Positions 9,430 through 28,784 of a stretch of 40,142 bases of DNA are shown here, one piece after another (position 1 is the first letter of the stretch; each line of letters opens with the position of its first letter). Source of the stretch: Truepera sp. (GTDB lineage: Bacteria > Deinococcota > Deinococci > Deinococcales > Trueperaceae); contig JAGXSJ010000152.1 in assembly GCA_018333895.1 (NCBI GenBank), positions 1-40,142 of the forward strand. The letters run 5' to 3'. The translations under genes were made by a program, and so were the position numbers. The notes under the pieces were generated by a model that was given only the letters and a program-made list of their open reading frames with translations, did no database searches and was not told where the DNA came from.

Positions 9430-10092
9430 ATGCTAAAAACTGCCCAGCTGTTCGCACTGGACCGTGTCTGTGAGCCGTTGCGCGCCCTGCTTGCCCCCGA
9501 TTACCCCTGGGAAGTGTTAGGGCGCCTTGACCATTTTGTCGCTACCGTTAGCAACCAGCGCCTGGGGCGCATCCATCCGACCGCTGTGGTGAACGGGCCG
9601 GTCTATCTGGCTGAGACCGCGGTGATCTATCCCCACGCCTATATCGAAGGCCCGGCCTGGATCGGCGAGGGGGCCGAGGTCGGGCACGGCGCCTTGGTGC
9701 GGGGCGGAGTGGTGCTAGGGCCTGATGCCAAGGTAGGCCACGCCACCGAGGTCAAACGGTCACTGTTTTTGGAGGGGGCCAAGGCTCCGCACTTTAACTA
9801 CGTGGGTGACGCCGTCGTTGGGCGGCAGGTCAACCTGGGCGCCGGGGTGCGGCTGGCTAACCTTCAGGTCTTTAACGGCACCATCCGGATCGAGGGGATC
9901 GAGACCGGCTTGCGCAAGTTCAGCGCTGCCATCGGCGACGAGGTCTCCATCGGCTGTAACGCGGTACTCTCGCCGGGGACCATCATCGGCCCGCGCACGG
10001 TGGTCTATAACGGCGCTATGCTGCGCGGCGTCTATCCCGCTGATACCGTTATTAAGCTCAGGCAGACCCTGGAGTCGGCTCCGCGCCGCTAG
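9430..10092 (+). CDS. Left-handed beta-helix (hexapeptide) transferase-like protein
   Basis: The product is 220 residues. About 45 helical residues are followed by repeated hexapeptide-type turns (IHPTAVVNGPVYLAETAVIY, IGEGAEVGHGALVRGGVVLG, VGDAVVGRQVNLGAGVRLAN) that build a left-handed parallel beta helix, as in the acetyltransferase half of GlmU and relatives. The segment HFNYVGDAVVG resembles GlmU LNYLGDA and suggests an acyl or acetyl transfer site. There is no N-terminal pyrophosphorylase domain, so this is not a complete GlmU. It probably modifies a nucleotide sugar or amino sugar, but the substrate is inference. The rhomboid gene follows after 11 bp. Confidence 0.8.
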   Translation: MLKTAQLFALDRVCEPLRALLAPDYPWEVLGRLDHFVATVSNQRLGRIHPTAVVNGPVYLAETAVIYPHAYIEGPAWIGEGAEVGHGALVRGGVVLGPDAKVGHATEVKRSLFLEGAKAPHFNYVGDAVVGRQVNLGAGVRLANLQVFNGTIRIEGIETGLRKFSAAIGDEVSIGCNAVLSPGTIIGPRTVVYNGAMLRGVYPADTVIKLRQTLESAPRR

Positions 10093-10103
10093 CATTCCTG
10101 ATC

Positions 10104-10742
10104 ATGTTTCCACTACGTGACGCCAACCCCAAGCACGGCCCGGTCTACCTGATGTGGTTGTTGGTGGTGGCTAACGTGGCGGTCTTTGTGTATCAGCTCG
10201 GCTTGAGTGAGCCGCAACTCAGGAGTCTGGTGCTTAGTTACGGCTTTGTGCCACGCGCATTTTTTGGCGACCCGCTAGGCGAAGGCTATCGGCTGCTCTC
10301 GAGCATGTTTTTGCACGGCAACCTGCTGCACCTAGCCAGCAACATGTTCTTCTTGTGGGTCTTTGGCGACAATATCGAGGACCGGATGGGGCATGGCAAG
10401 TTCTTGCTGTTCTACCTGGTGGGTGGGGTGGTGGCGGCGGCTTCTCACGGTCTGCTGATGCCTAATTCGGCTATTCCCATGATCGGCGCCTCGGGTGGGG
10501 TCAGCGCGGTGCTAGGCGCTTATATCGTCGCCTTTCCGCGCCAGCGCATCCTGACCTTCATTCTGCCGCTGTTCTTGTTCTGGCTGCCGGCCTGGTTTTA
10601 TCTCGGCTACTGGGCGCTCATTCAGGTGATCGGCGGCCTCGGGGGCGGGGCGGGTGGCATCGCCTGGTGGGCGCATATCGGTGGTTTTGTGTTCGGGATG
10701 GTGCTGGCGCCCTGGCTACTACATTCAGGAGGTAGGAAGTAG
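10104..10742 (+). CDS. Rhomboid family intramembrane serine protease
   Basis: The 212-residue, multi-pass membrane protein shows the rhomboid signatures: SMFLHGNLLHLASNMFFLWV with the conserved His/Asn helix, the catalytic Ser in GASGGVSAVLGAY, and the catalytic His in the late helix WWAHIGGFVFGM. Rhomboids cleave transmembrane substrates inside the bilayer. The extended loop between helices and the C-terminal His helix are typical of the GlpG-like bacterial group. It lies 11 bp after the beta-helix gene; TAGCAT 8 nt before the ATG could be a weak internal -10. Its last codons (GGRK and stop) are made of the first unit of a 14-bp tandem repeat, so the original C-terminus may have been altered. 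Confidence 0.92.
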   Translation: MFPLRDANPKHGPVYLMWLLVVANVAVFVYQLGLSEPQLRSLVLSYGFVPRAFFGDPLGEGYRLLSSMFLHGNLLHLASNMFFLWVFGDNIEDRMGHGKFLLFYLVGGVVAAASHGLLMPNSAIPMIGASGGVSAVLGAYIVAFPRQRILTFILPLFLFWLPAWFYLGYWALIQVIGGLGGGAGGIAWWAHIGGFVFGMVLAPWLLHSGGRK

Positions 10743-10768
10743 GAGGTAGGAAGTAGGAGGTAGGAAGT
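10727..10768. repeat. Three perfect 14-bp tandem repeats at the rhomboid stop codon
   Basis: AGGAGGTAGGAAGT occurs three times in direct succession (10727, 10741, 10755), followed by further purine-rich sequence and CACTACCCACACC. The first unit supplies the rhomboid stop codon. Reverse-complement-like text (CTTCCTACTTCCTACC) reappears at 34146-34163 inside the signal-peptide codons of the metallophosphoesterase gene. Confidence 0.75.
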
Positions 10769-10807
10769 AGGGGCTTCCCACTACCCACACCCCACTACCT
10801 AACCCCG

Positions 10808-12889
10808 CTAGCGGGTGGTGCCGATGCGTAGCCTGATGGTGCGCAGCCGCGCGGCTACCAACTGGGCGATATCCACCACCTCGGGGGCGCCGTCTTGTTG
10901 GGCGCTCTCGCTGCTGGCGAGCATCACCTTGCAGAAGGGGCAGCCGGTAGCGATCACCGCCGCGCCGGTAGCTTGGGCCTCCTGAAAGCGGTTTTCGGAG
11001 ACCCGTTGGGCGCCCGGCTCCTCCTCTTTCCAGAACTGCGCGCCGCCCGCGCCGCAACAGAACGAGTTCTCGCGGTGGCGTGGCAGCTCGACTATGGTGT
11101 TGCCACCTTGCGTCAGCACATCGCGGGGGGCGTCGTAGATGCCGTTGTGGCGGCCCAAGTAGCAAGGGTCGTGGTAGGTCAGCGGCTGGGTAAGCTCGAG
11201 CGGTGGCAGGCGCCCGGTTAGCATCAGCTCGTCGATCAGTTGGCTGTGGTGCATCACCGTGTAGTGCCCGCCGAGCTGCGGGTAGTCGTTGGCTAGCGCA
11301 TTGAAGCAGTGGGGGCAGGTGGTCAGCACCCGCTTGGGCTTGGCCGGGTCGAGGGTTTGCAGCGCGTCGTTCAAAGTGGCGACATTCTCGCTGGCCAACT
11401 GATAGTAGAGGTACTCGTTGCCGGAGCGCCGCGCCGGGTCGCCGGTACACTTTTCGGCCTTGCCCAGAATGGCGTAGTTGACCCCGGCGTGGTTAAGGAT
11501 CTCGGCCATGGCGCGGGTGGTCTGTTGCGCTTGCGGGTCGTAGCTGCCGGCGCAACCGACAAAGAAGAGCACCTCGAAATTGGGGTTCTCGGCTACGGTG
11601 GGGACTCCTAGCCCGGCGGCCCAGGCGTCGCGCTTATCTTGAGCTAGCCCCCAGGGGTTGCCAGCGCGCTCTAAGCCGCGGAAGGCCGTGCCTAGCTCGG
11701 ACGGGAAGGCCCCTGCCATCAGCACCTGCTGGCGGCGGATGTCGATGATGTCGATCATCTGCTCACACCCCACCGGGCAGATCTCGATGCAGGCGCCGCA
11801 GGTGGTGCAGGCCCAGAGCGACTCCTGGTTGATCACAAAGTCGAGCACCGCTCGCGGGCTCTCGCCGCCGGCGGCTAGCGCTCCAGCCACGCGATTAAGC
11901 TCGTAGCGCTTGTTGATCTCGATAGCGGCTGGGCTGAGCGCCTTGCCGGTCGCTGCCGCCGGGCAGGCGTTGGTGCAGCGGTTACACATGATGCAGGCGT
12001 AAGCGTCAAGCAGCTGCGGCAAGCGGAAGTGCTCGAGCCGCTCGACGCCGTAGCGCTCCACGCTTTCGTCCTCGAAGTTAATCGGCGAGAGCACGCCGCT
12101 TGAGACCTTGCTGCCGTCTTGGTGCCTAGGCTCTAAGGCGAAGTTGGCCGGTGCCATGAACAGATGGAGATGTTTTGAACGCGGAAAGTAAGGCAAAAAG
12201 GCCAGGATCAGCCCCAGCGCTCCCCAAAAGCCGATATGCCAGCCGATGATGCGGTTATCGCCGGGGCCGATCAGCCCGGCCAGCAGCGAGGCCACCGGCT
12301 GCCAGGGGTCGGCTTGCCCCTGGTAGGCCAGCAGGGAGCTATGGCCCAGCAGCCTGAAGCCGACATGCAGGAAAATAAACCCCAGCACGATCAGGCTATC
12401 GCGGCGGAGGCCCATGAGGGCGTCTTCGTGGCTGAGCGTCCGGGGGTTAACAGATAGCAGCCGGGGGTCGCGCAGGAGGAAGCGGCGCACGAAGAAGTAC
12501 CCTACCCCAACGATGACCAGCGCGGTGAACAGGTCGGCGCCTAGGCGGTAGAGCCCACCCAGGACGCTCTGGTGAAAACCGTGCAGCCAGGCTGGCGGCA
12601 GGTAGGCTTCGAGCAGGTCGAAGAGGTTGACCAGGGCGTAGAAGATGAAGCCGTAAAAGACCAGGGCGTGAAAGAAGCTGACCAGCGGCCGGTCGCGAAA
12701 GACCGTGCTCTGGCTAATGGTGCGGGCGATAGCCTCGCCGCAGCGCTCGGTGAGGTGGTTAAAGCTCGGGTAGTAGCCGCGCTCCCCCCGCGACACGGCC
12801 AGGATTACCCGGCGGAAGCCAACCACCGCAAAGTAGAGCGACACCACGGCCAACAGGGCGAAGAGGAGCTTCTCAGGTAAGGTGAGCAA
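10808..12889 (-). CDS. Membrane Fe-S oxidoreductase with two CCG domains (DUF224/EMO-like)
   Basis: The N-terminal third has about five membrane helices of the NarI/DsrM cytochrome b type, including several His (FFHALVFYGF, FLHVGFRLLG). Next come two 4Fe-4S motifs, CIMCNRCTNACP and CTTCGACIEICP. Two heterodisulfide-reductase CCG domains follow (FVGCAGSYDP; HDPCYLGRHN with SFCCGAGGAQFW). This is the architecture of proteins proposed to move electrons from electron-transfer flavoprotein to menaquinone during fatty-acid oxidation. ETF genes are not in the window. Start: TTG 12889 has GGAGG at 6-nt spacing; GTG 12931 is a possible longer start without a site. It is transcribed downstream of mnmD. 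Confidence 0.85.
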   Translation of the reverse strand: MLTLPEKLLFALLAVVSLYFAVVGFRRVILAVSRGERGYYPSFNHLTERCGEAIARTISQSTVFRDRPLVSFFHALVFYGFIFYALVNLFDLLEAYLPPAWLHGFHQSVLGGLYRLGADLFTALVIVGVGYFFVRRFLLRDPRLLSVNPRTLSHEDALMGLRRDSLIVLGFIFLHVGFRLLGHSSLLAYQGQADPWQPVASLLAGLIGPGDNRIIGWHIGFWGALGLILAFLPYFPRSKHLHLFMAPANFALEPRHQDGSKVSSGVLSPINFEDESVERYGVERLEHFRLPQLLDAYACIMCNRCTNACPAAATGKALSPAAIEINKRYELNRVAGALAAGGESPRAVLDFVINQESLWACTTCGACIEICPVGCEQMIDIIDIRRQQVLMAGAFPSELGTAFRGLERAGNPWGLAQDKRDAWAAGLGVPTVAENPNFEVLFFVGCAGSYDPQAQQTTRAMAEILNHAGVNYAILGKAEKCTGDPARRSGNEYLYYQLASENVATLNDALQTLDPAKPKRVLTTCPHCFNALANDYPQLGGHYTVMHHSQLIDELMLTGRLPPLELTQPLTYHDPCYLGRHNGIYDAPRDVLTQGGNTIVELPRHRENSFCCGAGGAQFWKEEEPGAQRVSENRFQEAQATGAAVIATGCPFCKVMLASSESAQQDGAPEVVDIAQLVAARLRTIRLRIGTTR

Positions 12890-12984
12890 CGGCGACCTCC
12901 ACAAGGCAGCTACGGTGATAGCGCTGAGCACAATTCTGACACATCAGCCGATGGCTGAACCGTTAATACCGTTATACTGTATGG

Positions 12985-13010
12985 CCCTCCCCCCATGTTA
13001 TGGGGGAGGG
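12985..13010. terminator. GC-rich palindrome 3' of mnmD
   Basis: Inverted repeat CCCTCCCCCCAT / ATGGGGGAGGG around GTT, 14 bp after the mnmD stop on the minus strand. It is related to the palindrome at 7738-7762 and shares the same flank GTGTGGGAGGGGGT. Confidence 0.5.
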
Positions 13011-13023
13011 TGTGGGAGGGGGT

Positions 13024-13722
13024 TTAAGGGCCGGGAAAGCCCCCCAGAGACTTGCAGGCCACCAGCATCTCGCGCTTGCCGCCGGGCGGACCGGGGCGCT
13101 TGGCGACCGCTAAGCCGAGCGCCGCTAGGCGCCGCCGCACCACCCCGCTAACGCTGTAGGTGCTAAGGCAGCCGCCGGGGGCGAGCGCCGCGCTTAGCTT
13201 ACCGAGGAACGCCTCCGACCACAGCTCAGGGTTAACCGTCGGGCTAAAGGCGTCCTGATAGATGGCGTCCGCCTCCGCCTCGCCCAGCGCCTGTTCAGTG
13301 GCCTCGCCGAGCAGCAGCACCAGCGTAACGGAACGATACTCAAACGCTCCTGCGGGCGCCGCCCAATAGCTCATGAGGGCGTCGTACAGCTCAGGGTGCT
13401 TAAGCGCCGTGCGGTAGCCGAGGGCAGAGGCTATGGACACCGGCAGCAGGGCGCGCTCGAGCCCCCGGTAGTAGAGCGGTGCGTCGTGCGCTAGCGCGAG
13501 ATCGGCGGTTAGCAAGAAGTTGAGGCCGGTCCCAAAGCCGACCTCCAGCACGCGGGTAGCCTGGCCGCGACTGAGCCGCGCCGCTACCCCGCTGCCCGCC
13601 ACAAAGACGTGCTGCGACTCGCTGATCGCCCCCTGGCGCGAATGAAAGGTCTGCGCAAAGGCCTCGCTGTAGAGGGTCTGGCTGCCGTCTTGGGTGATGA
13701 TGGGATAATACTCCGCGGTCAT
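13024..13722 (-). CDS. mnmD: tRNA U34 5-methylaminomethyl-2-thiouridine methyltransferase domain protein (MnmD)
   Basis: The 232-residue protein carries the SAM-binding motif LEVGFGTGLNFLLTA, the MnmC/MnmD signature IYQDAFSPTVNPELWSEAFL, and a late motif LAPGGCLSTYSVSGVVRRRL. It matches the stand-alone methyltransferase half of MnmC, which completes mnm5s2U at the wobble base of some tRNAs. The FAD oxidase half is absent, as in many non-proteobacterial MnmD proteins. The frame continues upstream to a GTG at 13758. I favour ATG 13722 because family members begin near TAEYYPIITQDGSQTLYSE; the GAGG site before it is close (2 nt). It follows the O-antigen-ligase-like gene with a short gap and may share its transcript. 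Confidence 0.87.
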   Translation of the reverse strand: MTAEYYPIITQDGSQTLYSEAFAQTFHSRQGAISESQHVFVAGSGVAARLSRGQATRVLEVGFGTGLNFLLTADLALAHDAPLYYRGLERALLPVSIASALGYRTALKHPELYDALMSYWAAPAGAFEYRSVTLVLLLGEATEQALGEAEADAIYQDAFSPTVNPELWSEAFLGKLSAALAPGGCLSTYSVSGVVRRRLAALGLAVAKRPGPPGGKREMLVACKSLGGFPGP

Positions 13723-13772
13723 GACCTCATGCCCAACTGCGCCGATGAGCCGCCGCACGCCGCCACCCCTTA

Positions 13773-14927
13773 CTACTGCTCGCTACCGCAAGCCTGGCAA
13801 TTGGCAAGACGGGGCGGTTCGCCTGCTATGGAGGCCCAGGCTACCGCTACCCATAAGGGATAGTGCACAGCGGCAGCAAACCAGATGTAGTCGACCAGAT
13901 TAATCAGCACCGCCACGCCGATCAGCCCCAGCACCAGCCAGGCTCGAGCCCGCCACAAATAGCGCCACACCTGGCCCCACAGCACCAAAAACCCTGCCAG
14001 CCCCAACACCCCCGACTCGACCAACAGCCCCAAGAGCAGATTATGGGCGTGGGAGGCGTAGGGGTCGAGGGCGGCAGGCGGCTGATGGACCTGGTAGTAG
14101 CTCTGAAAGCCCCCTACCCCCAGACCGGTCAGCGGATGAGCGGTAATGGCCTGCCAAGCCACCGCCCAAACCTCCAGGCGGGACTGGTTGGTCAGATAGT
14201 CAGGATCGATGAGCGTGGCTAGGCGTAGCTCGGGAAACGATACCGCGGCCAACAGGAATACCCCCACCGCCCCCAATAGGCCTAGGTACCGCGCTCGGGT
14301 CGGAAAGCGCGCTAGCACCAGGAGTGAGGTGACCACCAGCCCCAGCCAAGCGGCGCGGCTACCGGACAGGGTCGCAGCCCCCAGCCCCAGGAGCAGCGCT
14401 ACCGCACCCGGCAGGCCGCCGCCCAGCACAGCCGCCAAGGCGGCGCTTAGCGCGGCGCCGATCCCGTAAAAGTTGGGGTTGGGCGTAAGGCCGCTCACGC
14501 GGCCACCGGCCGGGTCGGCCAAGGCCTGCGCCAGGCCGATTCCCAAGCTCACCAACAGGCCTATCACCACTCCCCAGGCGGCGAGGCCAGCTCCCGCCTG
14601 CCGGAGCATGACCCGGCTTCCAACCATCACCAGGCCGGCCATAACCGCCGTCCCCAGCCACCAGCCCGCCCGTAGCCAGCGATCTAGCGGGGGAGGGTGG
14701 CGCGCCTCCAGAGCAGCCACTGGGAGCCCATGATCGGTTGGGCCCAGCAGCTGCGACGCCGCCCCCAGCAGCGCAAAGAGCGCCAACGGCAGTACAAACC
14801 AGGCGCGTTCGCGGCGCCTTAGCGCAGCTAAACCGATTAGCGCGGCGATGCCGCCAAACCAGACCGGCTGCACCGGCAACAGAATAAACAACCAGGCCGG
14901 CCACCGCACGGCTCTAGCGCGCTCCAA
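13773..14927 (-). CDS. Wzy/WaaL-type O-antigen polymerase or ligase
   Basis: The product has up to 384 residues and about ten hydrophobic helices. The O-antigen ligase domain region is recognisable by TPNPNFYGIGAALSAAL, LSGSRAAWLGL, a large external loop with WAVAWQAITAHPLTGLGVGG, and SHAHNLLLGLLVESGVLGL, which holds the characteristic HxHN. Family members join or polymerise lipid-linked glycans at the outer face of the cytoplasmic membrane. With a Wzm/Wzt exporter nearby, a ligase role is as likely as polymerase. The start is uncertain: TTG 14927 overlaps the preceding gene by 14 bp, while GTG 14909 would leave a 4-bp gap. It forms an operon with the sugar-phosphate transferase gene. Confidence 0.83.
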   Translation of the reverse strand: MERARAVRWPAWLFILLPVQPVWFGGIAALIGLAALRRRERAWFVLPLALFALLGAASQLLGPTDHGLPVAALEARHPPPLDRWLRAGWWLGTAVMAGLVMVGSRVMLRQAGAGLAAWGVVIGLLVSLGIGLAQALADPAGGRVSGLTPNPNFYGIGAALSAALAAVLGGGLPGAVALLLGLGAATLSGSRAAWLGLVVTSLLVLARFPTRARYLGLLGAVGVFLLAAVSFPELRLATLIDPDYLTNQSRLEVWAVAWQAITAHPLTGLGVGGFQSYYQVHQPPAALDPYASHAHNLLLGLLVESGVLGLAGFLVLWGQVWRYLWRARAWLVLGLIGVAVLINLVDYIWFAAAVHYPLWVAVAWASIAGEPPRLANCQACGSEQ

Positions 14928-16170
14928 AGCCGGTCAGGAGAATTCTGATCGTCTTAAACACAATTAAGGTATCCAACCACCAGGAGAGATGCTTTACGTA
15001 GTATAAATCGTAGCTGAGCTTGGTGATAGCCTCATCGGCGCCGGCGGCATAGCCCTGATGCACCTGCGCCCAACCGGTCAGGCCAGGTTTGACCAGGTGC
15101 CGGTACGGGTAGAGGGGGATGCGAACCGCAAACTCGCCAGCAAATTGCGCCTGTTCGGGTCGTGGGCCGATCAGGCTCATCTCTCCCCGCCAGACATTCC
15201 ACAACTGAGGCAGCTCATCGAGGCGGAATCTCCGCAACCGGCGGCCCAAGCGGGTCACGCGGTGATCATCGGCTTGCGCAAAGCGGTTACCCTGCTCTTC
15301 GGCGGCTGTCTGCATGGTGCGAAACTTGACCATCCGAAATGGCTTCCCCCCCTGCCCAACCCGCTCTTGCCAGAACAACAGCGGGCCGGTCGAATCTAAA
15401 CGAATGAGCAGCGCTAGCAGCCCCATTAACGGCAGGGTTAAAGGCAACGTCAGCAAGACCAGGCCGACATCCAGCAAACGCTTCAGATACGGGTACAGCC
15501 CTGGCAGCTGCCAGCCCTCCAACAGCGCTTGGGAGTGATGCTTAAGCGAAACCCTGCCGCTAAGCCGCTCATACACCACTGCCGCGTGGATGACCGGGAC
15601 TCCCCGCAACGACTGCTCGGCCACGAAGCGTGACCACTGTGGGTCGATAGCCGCATGCGGGTCGACTACTACCGCCTGAACCGGCACCAGGCGCGGGCTA
15701 GCCAAAACCACCCCCATCCCCCAGCTTGGTAAAGCGTCCACCAGGCCGCCGGGCACCAGTGCCAGGCGATGCCGCTCGGGCCGTTGCAGCCACAGATATA
15801 AGGCCTGCCAGAGAAAGGCCATCGCGAAAGCCCCCAGCAGATAGGTGCGCGAAAAATACCACCCGGAAACGACCAGCACGGCTGAGGTGAGCAGGAACCA
15901 GGAGAGTAGGGAGGCCAAGAGCGTAGTTAGGGCATCGGTCTTGGCCAGACTGAGCACCCGGCGGGTGTAAATCACCGACCCGAGGTAGCTGATTACTACC
16001 AGGCCGACCATGCCATAGGCGTCGGCGCCGATGATCCAGAATCTATGGTTGTACCAGCCCAGCAGCGACCCGGCAAATATGATCGCCACCGTTCCGGCTC
16101 CATGCCAGAGCCACTCCAGCCCGCTCGAAGAAGGCCGTAATAGTTTGCGGATTGAGAACGGCAGCACCAT
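14914..16170 (-). CDS. Polyprenyl-phosphate sugar-1-phosphate transferase (WbaP/UndPP initiating enzyme)
   Basis: The 418-residue protein has four to five N-terminal membrane helices, a degenerate Rossmann-like middle region and the C-terminal bacterial sugar transferase domain. That domain starts at KRLLDVGLVLLTLPLTLPLM and includes WQERVGQGGKPFRMVKFRTM, LDELPQLWNVWRGEMSLIGP and KPGLTGWAQV. Such enzymes transfer a sugar phosphate from a UDP-sugar to undecaprenyl phosphate, the first step of O-antigen or exopolysaccharide synthesis. The ATG at 16170 is preceded by AAGGTGAGG. A TATGCT box at 16216-16221 on the minus strand may be the promoter. It leads the minus-strand arm of the glycan island. 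Confidence 0.93.
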   Translation of the reverse strand: MVLPFSIRKLLRPSSSGLEWLWHGAGTVAIIFAGSLLGWYNHRFWIIGADAYGMVGLVVISYLGSVIYTRRVLSLAKTDALTTLLASLLSWFLLTSAVLVVSGWYFSRTYLLGAFAMAFLWQALYLWLQRPERHRLALVPGGLVDALPSWGMGVVLASPRLVPVQAVVVDPHAAIDPQWSRFVAEQSLRGVPVIHAAVVYERLSGRVSLKHHSQALLEGWQLPGLYPYLKRLLDVGLVLLTLPLTLPLMGLLALLIRLDSTGPLLFWQERVGQGGKPFRMVKFRTMQTAAEEQGNRFAQADDHRVTRLGRRLRRFRLDELPQLWNVWRGEMSLIGPRPEQAQFAGEFAVRIPLYPYRHLVKPGLTGWAQVHQGYAAGADEAITKLSYDLYYVKHLSWWLDTLIVFKTIRILLTGFGAR

Positions 16171-16215
16171 AACCTCACCTTAGCCCGTTGCGCCCAAGCT
16201 GGGCACCGTGAGGGT

Positions 16216-16221
16216 AGCATA
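16216..16221 (-). promoter_or_regulatory. Possible -10 box of the glycan minus-strand operon
   Basis: TATGCT on the minus strand about 45 nt before the ATG of the sugar-phosphate transferase gene. No convincing -35 is visible. Confidence 0.35.
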
Positions 16222-16284
16222 ACCCGGCCTCCGGTAAGCCTCAACCTCAGAGATGCGCGTTATCAACCTTCGACTTCGCTTCGC

Positions 16285-16625
16285 TCAGGGTGACACCATT
16301 AGTAGGGTGCGCTCGCGCACCGCTGCTCTGAGACCCTTCGCGAAGCCTGTCCTGAGTGAACCTGCGAGTATCCGCAGGTCGAAGGGCTCAGGGTGACACC
16401 ATTAGGGTGCGCTCGCGCACCGCTGCTCTGAGACCCTTCGCGAAGCCTGTCCTGAGTGAACCTGCGAGTATCCGCAGGTCGAAGGGCTCAGGGTGACACC
16501 ATTAGGGTGCGCTCGCGCACCGCTGCTCTGAGACCCTTCGCGAAGCCTGTCCTGAGTGAACCTGCGAGTATCCGCAGGTCGAAGGGCTCAGGGTGCCACC
16601 ATTAGGGTGCGCTCGCGCACCGCTG
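16285..16625. repeat. 100-bp tandem repeat array (three full units)
   Basis: Units 16321-16420 and 16421-16520 are identical, and 16521-16620 differs by one base (A to C at about 16596). A partial unit precedes at about 16285-16320 with a 3-bp insertion, and 5 bp of a further unit follow. Each unit holds nested inverted repeats: CCTGAG/CTCAGG outside, CCTGCG/CGCAGG inside, and a separate GGTGCGCTCGCGCACC palindrome. The array lies between the divergent glycan operons. Confidence 0.95.
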
Positions 16626-16677
16626 AGCGTTTTATCATTCTGAGCGCAGTGACATTCGCAGTGTCATTTACGGCTAC

Positions 16678-16707
16678 TTGCTTACCGTTCGCCAGAGGTG
16701 CTACCCT
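16678..16707 (+). promoter_or_regulatory. Possible promoter of wzm-wzt
   Basis: TTGCTT (16678-16683) and TACCCT (16702-16707), spaced 18 bp, about 40 nt before the wzm ATG and just after the tandem repeats. The match is moderate. Confidence 0.3.
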
Positions 16708-16747
16708 GTCCCCGGCGGGGAGCTACGCGCCAAGAGAGCTGGAAGGT

Positions 16748-17521
16748 ATGCAGATCAGCAAAACAACCAGGCAACAGCTCGACCTGTTGTGGCTGCTAGT
16801 AACCAAAGAGGTCACCTTCAGATACAAGCGCACCTTCCTGGGGTTTTTGTGGACGCTGCTGAATCCGCTCCTCACGGCGCTGGTGTTCTTTGTGGCCTTT
16901 ACCATATTCATGCGGTTTGAAATTGAAGACTTCGCCTTTTTTCTGCTGGCGGCTCTTTTTCCCTGGAGCTGGTTTGCCGGCTCGGTTACTGTTGCCACCG
17001 GGACTCTCACCGGCAATGTCTCGCTGATCCGCAAGGTGGTCTTTCCCAAACATCTGCTAATTTTGTCGGTGGTTATTGCCCAGATGGTCAACTTCGCCTT
17101 CACCCTGCCGGTTCTGCTGGGCCTGGCCTTCTTCTACGACCTTCCTCCCAGCCTTAACTGGCTAATCGGCATCCCCATACTGGCTACCGTGCAGTTTGCC
17201 ATTATCTACGGCCTGGGCCTGATGGTCTCAGTGGCCAATGTTTACTTCCGCGACCTCGAGTACATGGTGACGGTGGTGATTAGCCTGCTGTTCTGGATGA
17301 CCCCCATCATCTACCCGCTGAGTGCAGTGCCCGAGGGGGCGCGGCCCTTCTTGACCCTGAACCCCGTCAGCTATCCCATCCAGGCCTGGCGCGACCTGTT
17401 CATGCACAACACCCTCAACTGGCCCTATATTGGAATTGGCCTGGTTACCGCAGTGGTGGTGCTGCTGCTAGGGCACTGGCTCTTCCGGCGGATGTCCGGC
17501 AGGCTGGACGAGGTGCTCTGA
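16748..17521 (+). CDS. ABC-2 type polysaccharide export permease (Wzm-like)
   Basis: The 257-residue protein has six membrane helices and the Wzm/TagG pattern: an amphipathic N-terminus LLWLLVTKEVTFRYKRTFLG, the WTLLNPLLTALVFFVAFTIF helix, and the FWMTPIIYPLSAVPEG loop near the end. It forms the channel that flips lipid-linked glycan across the membrane, with the Wzt ATPase as partner. ATG 16748 begins at the conserved family start (MQISKTTRQQLDLL). GGAAGG lies only 1-2 nt upstream, so initiation context is weak. The frame extends left to 16556, but only through repeat sequence. The stop overlaps the wzt start by one base (TGATG). Confidence 0.92.
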   Translation: MQISKTTRQQLDLLWLLVTKEVTFRYKRTFLGFLWTLLNPLLTALVFFVAFTIFMRFEIEDFAFFLLAALFPWSWFAGSVTVATGTLTGNVSLIRKVVFPKHLLILSVVIAQMVNFAFTLPVLLGLAFFYDLPPSLNWLIGIPILATVQFAIIYGLGLMVSVANVYFRDLEYMVTVVISLLFWMTPIIYPLSAVPEGARPFLTLNPVSYPIQAWRDLFMHNTLNWPYIGIGLVTAVVVLLLGHWLFRRMSGRLDEVL

Positions 17522-18318
17522 TGGCTCGCCCTGAGCTTGTCGAAGTGCCCTGCCCTGAGCTTGTCGAAGGGGCTAGCCCGGCTACGGTTATTGCGGCAGA
17601 AAACCTGTGGAAGAGTTTTCCGTTACAGCGCGACCGGCCCGGCCTGAAGGAGCTGCTGGTCAACGCCCCCAGGTTTTTCAACGGCCGGACCAAGGGGTTC
17701 TGGGCACTTCGGGGTGTGAGCTTTACGGTCAACAAAGGCGAAAGCCTGGGGATTATCGGCAGGAACGGGGCCGGCAAGAGCACCCTGCTCTCGCTGCTCT
17801 TAGGCGTGGCCCTGCCCACCAAGGGCAGGCTTGAGGTACGCGGTAACAGAACCCCCCTGCTCGAGCTGGGCGCAGGCTTCCACCCCGACCTGACCGGCAT
17901 CGAGAATATCTATATCAATGGGGTGATGCTGGGCCTGACCCGGGCCGAGGTGCGGGCCAGGCTAGACGAGATCATCGCCTTTTCGGAGCTGGCCGAGTTT
18001 GTCCACCTGCCCCTGCGAACCTACTCCAGCGGTATGCAGATGCGGCTGGCCTTTGCGGTGGCCATCCACACCTCGCCGGAGGTATTGCTAGTAGACGAGA
18101 TTCTGGCAGTAGGCGACGAGTCGTTTCAACGCAAGTCGGGCAAGGCCCTGACCGATCTGATCGGCGGCGGGGTGACCACGGTGTTTGTCTCGCACAGCAT
18201 GGAGGCCATCAAAAAGCTCTGCCACCGGGCCATCTGGCTCGAACAGGGCGAAGTCCGGGCCGAAGGGGAAGCTGGACAGGTTGTCGAAGAGTACTTAAAA
18301 GCCCAAGGGCAGGCTTGA
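17521..18318 (+). CDS. ABC transporter ATPase for polysaccharide export (Wzt-like, no C-terminal glycan-binding domain)
   Basis: The 265-residue ATPase has Walker A GRNGAGKSTLL, the family-specific LELGAGFHPDLTGIENIY, the signature YSSGMQMRLAFAVA, Walker B VLLVDEILAVGD and the switch His in VFVSHSM. It ends VVEEYLKAQGQA, without the extra carbohydrate-binding domain of O8/O9-type Wzt. It powers glycan export with Wzm, to which it is translationally coupled. The N-terminus is odd: residues 3-16 (RPELVEVPCPELVEG) are two copies of the dispersed repeat CCTGAGCTTGTCGAAG read in frame, and the normal protein probably begins near AENLWKSF. Two decayed copies of its 3' end lie downstream at 19129 and 20080. 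Confidence 0.93.
   Translation: MARPELVEVPCPELVEGASPATVIAAENLWKSFPLQRDRPGLKELLVNAPRFFNGRTKGFWALRGVSFTVNKGESLGIIGRNGAGKSTLLSLLLGVALPTKGRLEVRGNRTPLLELGAGFHPDLTGIENIYINGVMLGLTRAEVRARLDEIIAFSELAEFVHLPLRTYSSGMQMRLAFAVAIHTSPEVLLVDEILAVGDESFQRKSGKALTDLIGGGVTTVFVSHSMEAIKKLCHRAIWLEQGEVRAEGEAGQVVEEYLKAQGQA
17529..17569. repeat. Two copies of a dispersed 16-bp repeat inside the wzt 5' end
   Basis: CCTGAGCTTGTCGAAG occurs twice, in frame, encoding PELVE. A variant (reverse complement, CCTGAGCTTTGCCGAAGG) is inserted in the MNT gene at 27648-27671, and related CCTGAG.../CGAAGGG segments form the 100-bp array at 16321. Confidence 0.8.
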
Positions 18319-18564
18319 ATAAAAAGGGTAGGCCAATTACGACCCTAAGAAGGCTGTGGGATGAGAGGAAGGTTGCGTGAAGCGGCCGACGACGCGATCC
18401 CGGTAAGCGTGCTAGCGGGAAACTCCGATAGCGAAGTTGCTTCGCGGAGCCTGGGCTGAGGGACGAAGTGTTCGCAACGACAATTGCCCTGTGCCCCTGG
18501 ACTAGCTCAGGCGCTAAAGTCAGGACAAGCGCAAAGGGCCAGCAGCGAGCCCGAAGCAGCATGC
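18319..18564. other. Intergenic region with a stem-loop
   Basis: About 245 bp after wzt. I find no convincing gene. A bulged hairpin lies at 18423-18449 (CTCC...GCGAAG / CTTCGC GGAG around TTG). No T tract follows it, so terminator or small RNA status cannot be decided. The right end carries the promoter of the next TA module. Confidence 0.35.
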
Positions 18565-18578: not shown

Positions 18579-18785
18579 ATGAGCACGAGCACCGCAGTAA
18601 GGATCTATCAGCGAGTGCGCCGCCTGTCCGAGCCGCTCGCCCAAGAGGTTATGGATTTTGTCGAGTATCTCGAGTTCAAACACAACTTGCGCGATCTGAA
18701 CACCGAACACCTGAGAGCTACCCAGGAGCCGGTGATGCAAGCGATCTGGGACAATCCCGAAGACGAGCTTTGGAATGACGCTTAA
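18579..18785 (+). CDS. DUF2281-like antitoxin
   Basis: The 68-residue acidic protein contains the DUF2281 core LSEPLAQEVMDFVEYLEFKH, typical of small antitoxins that precede PIN or MazF-type toxins. The C-terminal tail (QAIWDNPEDELWNDA) is the acidic segment that usually wraps the toxin. Its stop overlaps the start of the MazF-like gene by 11 bp, the usual coupling of an antitoxin-toxin operon. The antitoxin would neutralise the downstream ribonuclease and autoregulate the operon; this is inferred from the family. Confidence 0.75.
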   Translation: MSTSTAVRIYQRVRRLSEPLAQEVMDFVEYLEFKHNLRDLNTEHLRATQEPVMQAIWDNPEDELWNDA

Positions 18786-19080
18786 GCCGGGAGAGATAGT
18801 CGCCATACCGTTCCCTTACACGGATCTGCGTGCAACGAAACAGCGTCCCGTACTAGTCTTAACGCCCGAAGACGCCCGTGGCGACTTCATCTCCTTAGCT
18901 ATCACCTCTGTTCCAACAGCTGAACTAACAGTCAAAATCGAGCAAAGCGAGATGGCAAGCGGCCAACTCCCCAAAACCAGCTGGATTCGGTGCAACAAGG
19001 TCTTTACCCTAAGCACCGCCACCACCAGGAAAACATATGGGTTGGAATCTTGTGGTAAAGTTTCGCAGTGTGATGGCTAG
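18775..19080 (+). CDS. MazF/PemK-like mRNA interferase, C-terminus probably frameshifted
   Basis: The 101-residue product begins LKPGEIVAIPFPYTDLRATKQRPVLVL, the MazF/PemK fold with its conserved RPVLVL strand, and continues to SWIRCNKVFTLSTATTRKTYG. The last 14 residues (LESCGKVSQCDG...) no longer look like the family. In the next frame the text continues VVKFRSVMARAESL, which resembles the closing MazF helix. A single-base deletion near 19035 is therefore plausible, leaving a shortened toxin. If active, MazF-type enzymes cut mRNA at short motifs. It is coupled to the DUF2281-like antitoxin and followed within 50 bp by a remnant of the wzt 3' end. Confidence 0.72.
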   Translation: MTLKPGEIVAIPFPYTDLRATKQRPVLVLTPEDARGDFISLAITSVPTAELTVKIEQSEMASGQLPKTSWIRCNKVFTLSTATTRKTYGLESCGKVSQCDG

Positions 19081-19128
19081 GGCCGAGTCATTGTCTCGTA
19101 ACCCTACGGCTGTCAGGCATTTGGACGA

Positions 19129-19188
19129 TGGGGCGAGATACGGGCAGAAGGCGAAGCGGGGTGGGTGGTGGAGGAGTACCTATTTTAG
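19129..19188 (+). pseudogene. Remnant 1 of the wzt 3' end
   Basis: Read from 19129 the sequence gives WGEIRAEGEAGWVVEEYLF and stop. The intact wzt end reads QGEVRAEGEAGQVVEEYLKAQGQA. About 19 codons are recognisable, in the same orientation, directly after the MazF-like gene. It is either the tail of a former wzt paralogue or a homology tract left by recombination. Confidence 0.8.
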
Positions 19189-19212
19189 GGGTATCTCCCT
19201 TTTTTCTGCCTG

Positions 19213-19241
19213 TTGACGTTTGGGGGGGGGTGGTCTATGCT
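19213..19241 (+). promoter_or_regulatory. Promoter with G9 tract in its spacer, driving a MNT/HEPN operon
   Basis: TTGACG (19213-19218) and TATGCT (19236-19241) are separated by exactly 17 bp, and the spacer contains nine consecutive G (19222-19230). The downstream leader carries AAGGAGG 7 nt before the ATG at 19313. Slippage in the G run would change the spacer length and therefore promoter strength. Confidence 0.7.
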
Positions 19242-19312
19242 CTGTTTCGAGGCGGCCTTCTGGTGAGGCTACCTGAGTAGTTACAAATCGCTTTGCGTAA
19301 GGAGGCGGGGTA

Positions 19313-19660
19313 ATGAGCCGACCAATGGTTGATGATGGCCATGGGGCGCAAAATAGCATTGTGCTTGCCCGGTGCCGGGAGGCATTAAAAAAAAGTGCTC
19401 CCGAGGCGACCGTTATTCTTTATGGTTCCCGGGCGAGGGGGGATGCGAAGCCGGATTCTGATTATGACCTGTTAATTTTGCTGGATGGAAAGGTAAATTG
19501 GCTGCTGGAAGACCGGATACGGCAAAGCCTGTATCCGCTAGAGATGGAAACAGGAGCGGTTTTGACCGTTACCTGTTATAGCAAAGAAGAGTGGTACTCG
19601 CCTACCTATCAAGCCATGCCTTTCGTACGGAACGTAGAGCAAGAGGGCATTGCTTTATGA
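19313..19660 (+). CDS. MNT-domain nucleotidyltransferase (antitoxin-type)
   Basis: The 115-residue protein has the minimal nucleotidyltransferase signature YGSRARGDAKPDSDYDLLILLDG, with GSRARG plus the two catalytic Asp of SDYDLL. Such MNT proteins pair with HEPN proteins; in characterised type VII systems the MNT modifies the HEPN toxin with AMP. ATG 19313 has a clear AAGGAGG site. The stop overlaps the HEPN start (ATGA), so the two are coupled. Codon choice and AT content differ visibly from the GC-rich core genes nearby, suggesting recent acquisition. The promoter contains a G9 run. Confidence 0.87.
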   Translation: MSRPMVDDGHGAQNSIVLARCREALKKSAPEATVILYGSRARGDAKPDSDYDLLILLDGKVNWLLEDRIRQSLYPLEMETGAVLTVTCYSKEEWYSPTYQAMPFVRNVEQEGIAL

Positions 19661-20058
19661 ACGCGGAAATAAGCAAATTGGTTGATCATCGACTGGATCG
19701 GGCTAATGAATCAATTCGCGAAGCCGATCTCCTTTTAGAGGCAGGTTATGCCAATGCCGGTGTCAATCGTCTCTTCTATGCATGTTTTTATGCTGTATCA
19801 GCCCTTTTATTGACAAAGGGGCATTCCTCTCCAAAGCATAGTGGTGTCAGAGCCCTTTTTCATCAAAAAATAGTGAAACCTGGCCTGGTTGAAGTAGCTA
19901 TGGGACATTTATACGATAGGCTGTTTGACAGCCGTCAAAAATCGGATTATGTTGATCTGGTGAAATTTGACTTAGCGGATGTAAAGCCGTGGGTAGCGGA
20001 AGTTAAAGCGTTTGTCGGCAAGATTGAGGGCTTGATCACAGTGGAAAGACAAGCCTAA
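19657..20058 (+). CDS. HEPN-domain protein (toxin-type partner of MNT)
   Basis: The product is 133 residues and helical, with the HEPN core YANAGVNRLFYACFYAVSALLL followed by KHSGVRALFHQKIVKPG, the conserved Arg/His region of this subfamily. HEPN proteins in such pairs are RNases held inactive by the MNT partner. Start ATG 19657 overlaps the MNT stop by 4 bp. A longer reading frame from 19591 was rejected because it would overlap the MNT gene by 70 bp. It is AT-rich compared with core genes. About 20 bp after its stop begins a second remnant of the wzt 3' end. Confidence 0.85.
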   Translation: MNAEISKLVDHRLDRANESIREADLLLEAGYANAGVNRLFYACFYAVSALLLTKGHSSPKHSGVRALFHQKIVKPGLVEVAMGHLYDRLFDSRQKSDYVDLVKFDLADVKPWVAEVKAFVGKIEGLITVERQA

Positions 20059-20079
20059 GCATGAAAGCATGGATCAATC

Positions 20080-20178
20080 TGCGACCGGGCAAGCTGGCTC
20101 GAGCACGGCGAGATCCGCACGGAAGGCGAAGCGGGGTAGGTTGTAGAAGAGTATTTGAAAGCACAGGGGAAGGTTTGA
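20080..20178 (+). pseudogene. Remnant 2 of the wzt 3' end
   Basis: From 20080 the frame reads CDRASWLEHGEIRTEGEAG, stop (TAG), then VVEEYLKAQGKV and the natural TGA. The intact gene reads CHRAIWLEQGEVRAEGEAGQVVEEYLKA; the TAG corresponds to a Gln (CAG) codon. About 32 codons of clear homology lie between the MNT/HEPN operon and the methyltransferase-glycosyltransferase gene. Confidence 0.88.
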
Positions 20179-20188: not shown

Positions 20189-23101
20189 ATGGAAGATGTG
20201 GTAAGACATGTAAGAAGAACGGGTATGTCCGCACTGGTTTCCAAAAGTATGCTGTTAGAGGCGGACTTGCTTGACAGTGGGGCAGGCCCCTGGGTCGGTC
20301 ACATTCCCTTTGCTTTTTGGATCATAGAACAGCTCCGGCCGCGCATTTTAGTTGAACTTGGCACTTATTACGGCCAGTCCTATTTCAGTTTATGCCAAAG
20401 CGTGCGCGCCAATGGGCTTTCCACCAAATGCTATGCAGTTGATACCTGGCAGGGCGACGAACACGGAGGGTTCTACGGCGAGGAGGTGTTTGCCCATGTC
20501 GAAGCGCGCAACCAGCGCGAGTATCACGCTTTCTCACGGCTCCTGAGGATGCGTTTTGACGATGCGCTTTCGTCCTTCAGCGATGGCACTATTGACCTTT
20601 TGCACATTGATGGCCTGCACACTTATGAGGCGGTGCGGCATGACTTTGAAAGCTGGCTGCCAAAGCTTTCTTCGCGCGGCGTGGTCCTGTTTCACGACAT
20701 TAACGTCCGTGAGCGCGACTTTGGCGTCTGGCGGCTGTGGGAGGAGCTGTCAACGAGTTATCCGCACATCGAGTTTGAGCACTCTCATGGCCTCGGGGTG
20801 TTATTTGTTGGCAAACTTCAACCGCCCGGCATCATAGGGTTGTTAGAGGAATGGTCCGCCCCTGAAGGTAGCTACCTCATAAAGAATCTCTTCGCAAAAT
20901 TTGGACATCTGGTGAGTCTTGAGTATCAGACCAACGATCACAACCAAGGCATAGCCAAGCGCGACAGCCAGCTTGCCCATCTCAACCAGGCAGTAGCCGA
21001 GTACCAAGAGCAGCTCACCACCATTAGCCACACCCTGGCCGAGCGGGAGGAGCAGGTTATCTCGCTCAACCAGGGCATAGCCGAGCGCGACAGCCAGCTG
21101 GCCAGCCTCACCCAGGCAGTAACCGAGCATCAAGAGCAGCTCACCACCATTAGCCACACCCTGGCCGAGCGGGAGGAGCAGATCGTCGCGCTCAATCAAG
21201 GCATAGCGGAAAGGGACGGGCAGCTCAGCCAGTTGCGCGAACAAGAAGCCCAGCTGCAAGAACAAGCCAAGGTGCTGCTGGCTTCAGCGCAGGAAGCGGG
21301 CGCGCTAATCGCCAGCCTTAGTCAGACGATCGACGAGCGGGAGGAGCAGGTTATCTCGCTCAACCAGGGCATAGCCGAGCGGGACAGCCAGCTCGCGACC
21401 ACTAGCCAAACCCTTGCCGAGCGGGACGTGCAAATCGCCACGATTCTTAGTTCGACAACTTGGCGGCTAACCGGACCCCTGCGGGTGGTTGCCGATCAGC
21501 TCAAGCGGATACGGCGTTGGTTACGGTTCTCGGTACGCAAAGTTTTATTCGCTCCAAAACGGTTTGATGCGGAGTGGTATCTAAAGCAGAATCCAGATGT
21601 TGCGATGAGCGGTATGGATCCCTATAAGCACTACATACTTTTTGGAAAAGCAGAGGGTCGCAAGCCAGCACCCGATACGTCACTGTTACACGGCAAGAAA
21701 AGTAGTGTATTTCATTTGTTGAGAATCGCACCGCAAATAATTACCCAAAAAGGTGGCATCTGGCGCACCTGTGCGGCGGTACTGCGTGTATATCGTCGCG
21801 AAGGCTTTGCCGGCATCAAGGTGCGAGCTTTTGGGGGTCCCTCACTGTTACCCGCCAGAGGGCCTCTCCAGAGTCCTATGTGGTTCTTCGACATTGTGAA
21901 TGACACCGCGATTCGTCAGAGTTTTTGGACATTGCAACACGTTATCGCTTTGCACGCGAAGAACCACGGCGAGATAACGCACCTGATAGCATTACCATTT
22001 TTCTCCGCAGGTGGCGCCCAACAGACAGCCACGAATTTTGCGTGTGCTGTTGCGCGTACAGGCGGGAGCGTCCTGATGCTCGCTGTCGATCGGAAACTGC
22101 CTGTCAGCACAGCTGTGACACCTGCCGGGAAAGTGCTCGCCATTGACCTTGAAGAGTACTTTCCTGGCACAGATATGGAGGTTCGCGAAGCCCTTCTCAT
22201 GGCCATGATTAGAATGGTTGCCCCAAGAGTGCTTCACATCATAAATTCGGAGGTGGGCTGGCGCCTTGTAATCAAATTTGGGAACCGCATTAGGCAAGTG
22301 TGCAGAGTGTTCGGTTCCATATTTGCGTTTCAGTACGACTCGAAAACTGGCGCAAAGATCGGCTATGCAGAAACCTTCCTTCGTGACGCACTTCCCTTTT
22401 TGGATGGGTTGCTCACGGATAATAAGCGGTTCGCAATTGATGCCATCGCGGATTACGGATTGGAGGCCGAGAAGGCAAAGTTTCATGTAATATATAACCC
22501 TTGTCGTTTTGACAGCGCAGAGATTGCGTCTGAGCGCCTGAGAACCCTCGCGGCCTCTATTGCGGACGCGCAACGTTTGCAGATCGTTTGGGCAGGACGG
22601 CTGGACGCAGAAAAGCGCCCCGACCTACTTTTCGAAGTGGCGCGTCTGTGTCCTCAGATGGATTTCCATGTGTTTGGCGCAACCATAGTTGACTCGTCTC
22701 TGAGCCTCGGTGCGCCTCCAGCAAACTTGCAGCTTCGCGGGCCATTCTCCTCGCCCCTAGACGTTATTCGCGACTCGAACTACCACGCTTATATGTTCAC
22801 CTCTCGCTGGGAGGGTATGCCCAACACTGTCATCGAGTTCGGGGCCGCCGGATATCCCGTCATTGCTGCAACGGTTGGTGGAATTTCGGAACTGATAGAC
22901 GAGTCCACCGGCTATCCACTTCCTGCCAGAGCAAGTGCTGCTGACTACGCTCGCTCTCTGGAAGCTGTCCGTATGGAGCCCGATATTGCTGCACAACGCG
23001 CAGCGGCGCTTGTGCGGAGAATTGCGGAAATCCACAGTCAGAACTCGTTTTACTGCACGCTCAAAAACGTTCCCAGCTATCTCATTCCCCCAAAAGGCTA
23101 A
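20189..23101 (+). CDS. Methyltransferase - coiled coil - GT4 glycosyltransferase fusion
   Basis: The product is about 970 residues with four parts. (1) Residues 1-230 form a class I SAM methyltransferase (ILVELGTYYGQSYF motif I; DLLHIDGLHTYEAVRHDF; VVLFHDI). (2) About 250-420 form a coiled coil of 42-residue repeats (NQGIAERDSQL, HTLAEREEQ). (3) A linker at about 425-500 has WRLTGPLR and WYLKQNPDVAMSGMDPYKHY. (4) About 590-970 form a GT-B/GT4 transferase with WAGRLDAEKRPDLLFEVA and NTVIEFGAAGYPVIAATVGG. It may both methylate and extend a glycan, with the coiled coil as a ruler or scaffold; this is inference. ATG 20189 (GAGG upstream) is preferred over GTG 20180. It begins immediately after a wzt remnant. 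Confidence 0.88.
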   Translation: MEDVVRHVRRTGMSALVSKSMLLEADLLDSGAGPWVGHIPFAFWIIEQLRPRILVELGTYYGQSYFSLCQSVRANGLSTKCYAVDTWQGDEHGGFYGEEVFAHVEARNQREYHAFSRLLRMRFDDALSSFSDGTIDLLHIDGLHTYEAVRHDFESWLPKLSSRGVVLFHDINVRERDFGVWRLWEELSTSYPHIEFEHSHGLGVLFVGKLQPPGIIGLLEEWSAPEGSYLIKNLFAKFGHLVSLEYQTNDHNQGIAKRDSQLAHLNQAVAEYQEQLTTISHTLAEREEQVISLNQGIAERDSQLASLTQAVTEHQEQLTTISHTLAEREEQIVALNQGIAERDGQLSQLREQEAQLQEQAKVLLASAQEAGALIASLSQTIDEREEQVISLNQGIAERDSQLATTSQTLAERDVQIATILSSTTWRLTGPLRVVADQLKRIRRWLRFSVRKVLFAPKRFDAEWYLKQNPDVAMSGMDPYKHYILFGKAEGRKPAPDTSLLHGKKSSVFHLLRIAPQIITQKGGIWRTCAAVLRVYRREGFAGIKVRAFGGPSLLPARGPLQSPMWFFDIVNDTAIRQSFWTLQHVIALHAKNHGEITHLIALPFFSAGGAQQTATNFACAVARTGGSVLMLAVDRKLPVSTAVTPAGKVLAIDLEEYFPGTDMEVREALLMAMIRMVAPRVLHIINSEVGWRLVIKFGNRIRQVCRVFGSIFAFQYDSKTGAKIGYAETFLRDALPFLDGLLTDNKRFAIDAIADYGLEAEKAKFHVIYNPCRFDSAEIASERLRTLAASIADAQRLQIVWAGRLDAEKRPDLLFEVARLCPQMDFHVFGATIVDSSLSLGAPPANLQLRGPFSSPLDVIRDSNYHAYMFTSRWEGMPNTVIEFGAAGYPVIAATVGGISELIDESTGYPLPARASAADYARSLEAVRMEPDIAAQRAAALVRRIAEIHSQNSFYCTLKNVPSYLIPPKG
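20941..21440 (+). repeat. 126-bp in-frame tandem repeats encoding the coiled coil
   Basis: Starts of the repeated CAACCAGGGCATAGCC segment fall at 20941, 21067 and 21193 (period 126 bp, 42 residues). A further copy at 21361 is offset by 168 bp. Long stretches are nearly identical, so the coiled-coil length is likely to vary by recombination or slippage. Confidence 0.85.
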
Positions 23102-27406: not shown

Positions 27407-27716
27407 AAAGGAGCCTGGCCTCCTTCATCACGCCCCGCAAAAAGGGCAGTTCGCGCCGGTCCTGAAACTCCTCGGGGGTAAGAACCACCGGCTCTACCAC
27501 CACCGGCAGATCCCGCAGGGCCCACAGCACCCGACCGATGCGCTCCAAGTGCGGCAGGTCGGTCTCCCAGAGGACGAGGAGGTCCAGATCGGAGCGCCGG
27601 GTGGCCGCTCCCCGGGCGCGGGAGCCGAAGAGGTAGACTTGTCCTGAGCTTTGCCGAAGGGCCCGCCCCACGCCCAGGGTGCTCAAGCGTTCGGTGACGG
27701 TCTCGAGCCAGTCCAC
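27381..27716 (-). CDS. MNT-domain nucleotidyltransferase with in-frame repeat insertion
   Basis: The 111-residue protein has LFGSRARGAATRRSDLDLLVL, the MNT catalytic signature. GTG 27716 is the start: TAAGAT lies 6 nt upstream, fitting a leaderless mRNA, and a nearby ATG is out of frame. Residues about 20-26 (LRQSSGQ) are a translated copy of the dispersed repeat CCTTCGGCAAAGCTCAGG, inserted just before the catalytic strand. The pair partner is the HEPN gene it overlaps. Its first 126 bp, promoter included, are duplicated at 28671-28796. Confidence 0.85.
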   Translation of the reverse strand: MDWLETVTERLSTLGVGRALRQSSGQVYLFGSRARGAATRRSDLDLLVLWETDLPHLERIGRVLWALRDLPVVVEPVVLTPEEFQDRRELPFLRGVMKEARLLYERGETAA

Positions 27717-27722
27717 AGGGAC

Positions 27723-27728
27723 ATCTTA
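27723..27728 (-). promoter_or_regulatory. -10 box of MNT gene (leaderless, GTG start)
   Basis: TAAGAT on the minus strand, 6 nt from the GTG at 27716. The duplicated fragment preserves the same spacing with TAAAAT (28791-28796). Confidence 0.5.
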
Positions 27729-27746
27729 CCCTAACGGCAACCTGCT

Positions 27747-27925: not shown

Positions 27926-28345
27926 ATGGATGGCCTAAAAGATGAACGGGAGCGAATTGCAGCCGGGGCTTCTTTGCCTGGGATAAGTGAAGAAGACATG
28001 GTGGTATATAAGGCCACCGCCCGGCAACGGATGGCACAAGATGAAAAAGAGCTGCTAGTAAGGCGGAAAAGGGCTTGGGAAACCGTGCGTTGGGCAGCCA
28101 AATTACTCAAGGAGGAGTTTGGCGCCCATCGGGTGGTGGTCTTTGGGTCCCTTCTTTGTTCAAAATGTTTTAATAAATGGTCCGATGTGGACATCGCTGC
28201 CTGGGGAATTAGCCCCACAGACACCTTCCGGGCCATGGGCGCGGTGATGGATCTGCGCGAGGATATTGAGATCAACCTGGTAGATATCGAGACTTGTCGC
28301 GCTACCCTGCGGGCAATAATCGAGCGTGAAGGGCAAGAGATATGA
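27926..28345 (+). CDS. MntA-like nucleotidyltransferase (antitoxin-type)
   Basis: The 139-residue protein is helical at the N-terminus (residues 1-65), followed by a nucleotidyltransferase domain with VVVFGSLL and WSDVDIAAWG, the GSx10-DxD pattern of MntA-type antitoxins. These AMPylate a HepT toxin in the best studied cases. Here the partner gene overlaps by 4 bp (ATGA) but is truncated, so this antitoxin may be an orphan. It starts 5 bp after the IS3-like remnant. Confidence 0.8.
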   Translation: MDGLKDERERIAAGASLPGISEEDMVVYKATARQRMAQDEKELLVRRKRAWETVRWAAKLLKEEFGAHRVVVFGSLLCSKCFNKWSDVDIAAWGISPTDTFRAMGAVMDLREDIEINLVDIETCRATLRAIIEREGQEI

Positions 28346-28668
28346 TTGAGTGCTATCTGGTAGTAGCTAGTCGTATCCGCCAAGAACTTACCGATCTGGA
28401 GAGGGTTGTAAGCCGGGCCGAGCAGGCCATGGGTTTGGCCCGGAATTCCACGGAGCATGACTTATATCTTGATTCGGTTGCGCTGAACTTGCACGACTTC
28501 TATGGTGGACTGGAACGCATTTTCCGTCACATTGCGACGGGTGTGGACCAGAGCCTGCCAGGCGGACCGGAGTGGCACCGTGCGCACAGAACTGCTACTC
28601 TTCGCTTATTTTTTGGAACAGGTGTAACGGGAAAAATAAAAACAAAGCGACGCACGCAATTATCTTAA
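28342..28668 (+). pseudogene. HepT-like HEPN toxin, C-terminally truncated
   Basis: Residues 1-85 match the HepT-like HEPN family (LYLDSVALNLHDFYGGLERIF, then GVDQSLPGGPEWHRA). Family members continue for about 60 residues to a C-terminal helix with the catalytic R-x4-H-type motif. Here the frame changes to unrelated TLRLFFGTGVTGKIKTKRRT and stops. The break abuts the duplicated MNT fragment that begins at 28671, so the deletion and the duplication look like one rearrangement. The remaining protein should lack RNase activity. Confidence 0.78.
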
Positions 28669-28784
28669 CTGGCCGCTCCCCGGGCGCGGGAGCCGAAGAG
28701 GTAGACTTGTCCTGAGCTTTGCCGAAGGGCCCGCCCCACGCCCAGGGTGCTCAAGCGTTCCGTTATGGTCTTTGGCCAGTCCAC
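28665..28784 (-). pseudogene. Duplicated 5' end of the MNT gene
   Basis: From GTG 28784 the frame encodes 39 residues, VDWPKTITERLSTLGVG and on to YLFGSRARGAAS, then TAA. Bases 28671-28796 align without gaps to 27603-27728. The first 90 positions are identical; nine differences fall in the last 37 bp, around the start codon and promoter. The catalytic Asp residues are lost. The fragment's TAAAAT box overlaps the stop codon of rfbC. Confidence 0.9.

Follow-up and report, generated by a model that had tools for sequence, protein, structure and literature searches.

Promoter Tracts in Described Systems and in the Truepera Locus

In Neisseria meningitidis, the promoter of porA carries a poly-G tract between its -35 and -10 elements, for which a spacing of 17 bp is optimal (PMC7864442; PMC3639595). 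Starting from 11 G, the loss of one residue lowers surface expression 2-fold and the loss of two lowers it 13-fold; such variants are present at ~2e-5 in a MutS+ strain, and the loss of MutS raises the rate ~1000-fold (PMC3639595). In addition to the 11G promoter tract, porA has a second homopolymer, 7A, which is located at the 5' end of its coding frame (PMC3639595). Poly-G tracts in or near the -35/-10 region are also present in tp0126 and tprL of Treponema pallidum, where 8 versus 10 G alters reporter output (PMC7864442). The present analysis concerns a run of nine G (G9) in the spacer of a predicted sigma-70-type promoter at positions 19213-19241 of a 40,142-nucleotide stretch of Truepera sp. 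DNA (contig JAGXSJ010000152.1 of assembly GCA_018333895.1), called the window below. The promoter lies upstream of a gene pair encoding an MNT nucleotidyltransferase and a HEPN protein. Deinococcota, the lineage to which an SlpA-type S-layer protein and a phylum search point, are not known for porA-like phase-variable loci.

The likeness to porA lies in three traits. The G tract is located wholly within the spacer, between -35 and -10 boxes recognised by consensus match; G9 brings the spacing to the 17-bp optimum; and a second homopolymer occurs 5' in the frame (7A in porA, A8 here). The two loci differ in that the MNT/HEPN pair does not encode a surface protein and that length variation is established for the porA tract. 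The tp0126 and tprL promoters are alike in having a G tract within or close to the -35/-10 region, but length variation is documented in strains of T. pallidum. A literature search for phase-variable promoters of toxin-antitoxin (TA) systems gave nothing relevant among titles and abstracts. The reading that appears probable is that an ordinary sigma-70-type promoter drives a class II MNT/HEPN module, and that the G9 in its 17-bp spacer is incidental.

A Probable Sigma-70-Type Promoter Upstream of the Gene Pair

A first-pass annotation of this DNA had pointed to TTGACG-17-TATGCT at 19213-19241 of the + strand with G9 inside the 17-bp spacer, and direct reading of the bases confirmed this arrangement. 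The same annotation regarded it as the best sigma-70-type promoter in the window, a rank that it does not keep: the motif matches 9 of 12 consensus positions, 18 sites stand at that score, and two reach 10/12 (19925 and 32017). One of these two, TTGACA-17-TATGTT at 19925-19953, falls within the HEPN gene; it may serve genes farther 3' or may be a chance match. Sites with at least 9/12 matches numbered 10 in a 19-kb scan, versus 6.6 +/- 2.7 in shuffled sequences.

Within the 232-bp gap that precedes the MNT/HEPN pair, the 19213 site is the only good candidate, the next best scoring 6. The probability of finding a 9/12 site in this gap by chance is ~0.08, and that of the strict pattern TTGAC-17(+/-1)-TANNNT is ~0.003 under a local model. 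Throughout the genome, TTGAC-17-TANNNT occurs at 105 sites versus 10 for the reversed control. Because of this roughly tenfold excess, promoters of this kind are considered to be in use in the Truepera genome, where sigma-70-type hexamers at this spacing stand above chance and roughly nine in ten such sites should be real. The sole candidacy in the gap, the genome-wide excess, and the low local chance together indicate that the predicted promoter at 19213-19241 is very probably real.

From this promoter, transcription of the MNT and HEPN genes would start near 19248. The ATG of the MNT gene, at 19313, is located 71 bases 3' of the -10 box. Just 5' of the promoter, a weak terminator-like hairpin followed by a T run (19187-19206) is a putative insulator, possibly separating the promoter from the MazF-like module that precedes it. 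A small open reading frame of ~50 codons runs across G9 (19128-19280) without an evident ribosome site and was taken as chance. No Rfam match was obtained in the promoter/module region.

The MNT/HEPN Gene Pair

Class II HEPN/MNT pairs are defined as PF05168/PF01909, and their TA function has been described as needing validation (PMC7641770). In the Truepera locus, the MNT stop and the HEPN start overlap by 4 nt as ATGA, and both genes are intact. Their products match PF05168 (HEPN) and PF01909 (MNT), the scores of 54.5 and 46.3 bits lying above the cut-offs. The two domains are adjacent with MNT first, GSX10DXD is present, RX4HXY is missing, and the conserved tyrosine is kept in a DY motif; judged by these sequence traits, the pair fits a class II module. 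The first-pass annotation had named it a TA operon. This label is uncertain for a class II pair that lacks RX4HXY. We infer that the pair may function as toxin and antitoxin.

The type VII system HepT/MntA has the same gene order and the same nucleotidyltransferase antitoxin motif, but the RX4HXY RNase/acceptor motif is absent from the Truepera protein, and the NCBIfam model of MntA scores 31.5 bits, below its cut-off of 60. In PF05168 proteins of this kind, the catalytic H is replaced by D, and another H is conserved at a different position (PMC3710099, a survey of HEPN). An HS pair N-terminal to the SRQKSDY motif of the present protein aligns with the HS of 9xbd, whose HEPN and nucleotidyltransferase chains are the nearest solved relatives. 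This kinship points to complex formation by class II pairs. Relatives outside the genome are ~30-55% identical, and the aligned stretch often covers part of the protein; the nearest paralogue reaches 48%.

Rarity and Length of the G9 Tract

Runs of G or C of at least 9 were found at ~10 distinct loci in the 2.84 Mb of the genome, versus ~54 expected from a first-order model derived from the window; for this count, a locus repeated on redundant contigs was taken once, and so was the G18 stretch at a contig end. At the genome rate, the chance of one such run in the 40-kb window is ~0.13. Elsewhere in the assembly, a C9 run lies within an apparent CRISPR array on contig C90 (L048 ~923), and the end of contig C30 (L042 968-1026) holds an implausible G18 run together with C8/G9 clusters, resembling a sequencing artefact.

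Among 39 family genomes, no other spacer with G8 or longer between TTGA and TANNNT boxes was found, the reversed control giving one match. G/C runs were no longer than 7 in the upstream regions of 30 other genes of the MNT family or homologues, and no longer than 6 upstream of three distant matches in metagenome-assembled genomes, which came from a genome-wide scan for close MNT relatives. Because these scans yielded no other spacer or upstream case, the G9 promoter is regarded as a single case without a recurring theme, and a family-wide theme of G-tract promoters is ruled out by the scan of the 39 genomes. DNA homologous to the promoter locus was found in none of the 38 other family genomes, and the viral collections contained no relative and no match to the pattern.

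The genome is a strain-mixed draft of 178 contigs, listed with 8% contamination. The same 29 bases, including G9, are also present on contigs C154 and C173. Contigs C152, C154, and C173 are identical from window position 16.4 kb to the end, a block of 23.7 kb, and leftward of it (1-16400) they form a strain-variant mosaic. C154 and C173 were therefore rejected as independent strains; they are alternative assembly paths through one collapsed block, and since the paths share it, the identical G9 on three contigs counts once. It could be proposed that the exact length of G9 arose by error in the assembly or sequencing of such a draft, in view of the number of contigs, the contamination, the redundant strain paths, and the G18 at the end of C30. 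Three contigs nevertheless share G9, though not independently, and the resulting 17-bp spacing is the value expected for a promoter; this explanation is held to be very improbable.

Incidental Tract or Contingency Locus

Two observations weigh against an incidental tract. Long G/C runs are under-represented in the genome, and the G9 retained in a promoter may be under selection. In addition, A8 lies 157 bp downstream of G9, a pairing of tracts as in porA. Both tracts are among the rarest of the genome, their joint occurrence within 230 bp has a chance of ~5e-5 under a local first-order model, and a shift of frame at A8 leads to a stop within 21-26 codons. These observations, together with a geometry equal to that of porA, would suit a contingency promoter in which G9 slippage would yield spacers of 16, 17, or 18 bp and make MNT/HEPN expression differ from cell to cell. 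Several points argue against such a promoter. No length variant was seen among the contig copies, which share one collapsed block, and there is no homologous family DNA. A full MutS1 is encoded in the genome, which weighs against frequent switching, as do the mere 2-fold drop caused by a one-G change in porA and its frequency of ~2e-5 in a MutS+ strain. The pairing of G9 and A8 was noticed post hoc, with ~0.1-0.6 such coincidences expected genome-wide by our estimate, and no other family promoter carries such a tract. A porA-like promoter is a fair hypothesis but is considered unlikely.

The A8 tract might add a translational layer: a slip there would put the antitoxin out of frame ahead of the active site and, via the ATGA overlap, reduce the coupled translation of HEPN. 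A contingency locus of two layers, in which both the G9 of the spacer and the A8 of the antitoxin gene would slip and give heterogeneous TA expression, is more doubtful still.

An ordinary promoter is favored by the exact match, the 17-bp spacing, the correct orientation, the strong Shine-Dalgarno sequence, the overlapping gene pair, the presence of MutS1, and the lack of a recurring G-tract theme. In such a promoter, G9 would slip like any G9. A change of one base would give a 16- or 18-bp spacer, both of which should be tolerated, and the rare cells with a slipped tract would show a graded, few-fold change of expression. By analogy with porA, G8 or G10 is expected to cause a graded and rare change, not an on/off switch. 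No evidence was seen for a selection of G9 as a switch.

Surface-Glycan Setting and Flanking Remnants

The features of the locus are collected in Table 1. The gene order comprises a Wzm/Wzt-like exporter (16556-18318), a DUF2281/MazF-like pair, the MNT/HEPN pair, and a methyltransferase-glycosyltransferase.

Table 1. Positions in the window of the promoter elements, genes, tracts, and remnants around the MNT/HEPN pair.
Feature	Position	Strand	Remarks
3' end of Wzt-like ABC ATPase gene	18218..18318	+	gene 17521-18318, intact
PemK/MazF-like open reading frame	18775..19080	+	C-terminus apparently cut; preceded by DUF2281 open reading frame (18579-18785)
Decayed copy of Wzt 3' end	19131..19182	+	just 5' of promoter; in-frame remnant GEIRAEGEAGWVVEEYL
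Weak terminator-like hairpin and T run	19187..19206	+	-5.2 kcal/mol
-35-like hexamer TTGACG	19213..19218	+	5/6 consensus positions
17-bp spacer TTTGGGGGGGGGTGGTC	19219..19235	+	read from sequence
G9 homopolymer within spacer	19222..19230	+	one of ~10 distinct loci with G/C runs of at least 9 in genome
-10-like hexamer TATGCT	19236..19241	+	4/6 consensus positions; A at position 2, T at position 6
Shine-Dalgarno AAGGAGG of MNT gene	19299..19305	+	strong
MNT nucleotidyltransferase gene	19313..19660	+	115 aa; PF01909; GSX10DXD present (GSRARGDAKPDSDYD)
A8 tract in MNT 5' coding region	19387..19394	+	before GSX10DXD; one of eight distinct loci with A/T runs of at least 8 in genome
HEPN protein gene	19657..20058	+	133 aa; PF05168; SRQKSDY instead of RX4HXY
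Second decayed copy of Wzt 3' end	20078..20178	+	just 3' of HEPN; 79% identical to gene

The decayed copies correspond to the last 50-100 bases of wzt, with 74-83% identity among themselves and to the gene, and their in-frame remnants can still be read. Three Wzt 3' ends, one real and two decayed, thus bracket the MazF-like and MNT/HEPN modules, and the promoter sits where remnant and module meet. In the simplest reading, insertion or recombination brought the modules to the end of wzt, and they left duplicated ends behind. The MNT/HEPN pair is read as an accessory cassette, probably horizontally acquired, between decayed Wzt ends in a surface-glycan island.

These remnants also bear on the proposal that G9 and A8 are incidental to a foreign module in decay, whose transcription really starts elsewhere, e.g., in read-through from wzt or from the MazF-like module. 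Decaying Wzt copies flank the module, a truncated-looking MazF-like open reading frame precedes it, and 9/12 promoter matches are common. On the other side, the MNT and HEPN genes are both intact, with a strong Shine-Dalgarno sequence and an overlap; the gap holds no alternative promoter candidate; and the weak hairpin stands just upstream of the promoter. A start elsewhere is accordingly regarded as improbable, and the ordinary promoter at 19213-19241 is retained.

Other repeats and modules were observed in the same genome. A 131-bp direct repeat with 92% identity (27602-27732 and 28670-28800) brackets a second MNT/HepT-like pair (27926-28668) and duplicates the 5' end of a neighbouring MNT gene. 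The idea that MNT/HEPN pairs are generally flanked by long direct repeats was rejected, because the loci that were checked included only two such sites. An extra MNT/HEPN pair of ~1 kb lies between two divergent genes on contig C173 (31201-31536, L069) and is absent from C152 and C154 (window ~9353); this is a case of module presence or absence within one population. Within the island, a 100-bp tandem repeat is located upstream of wzm (16303-16625), and 126-bp repeats of 42 codons occur within the methyltransferase-glycosyltransferase gene (20941-21444). A dispersed repeat at 18436-18486 is also found on contigs C106, in many copies, C53, C166, and C37.

Significance

Should the G9 tract vary in length, porA-type slippage, known from host-associated surface genes, would be extended to a TA-like module in another lineage. 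It would also offer a simple genetic basis for differences in growth arrest between cells of an environmental species of Deinococcota. Should the tract be constant, G9 would belong to the normal promoter of an accessory module. The lasting point would then be the lodging of such modules beside the ends of glycan-export genes, where they leave decayed copies.
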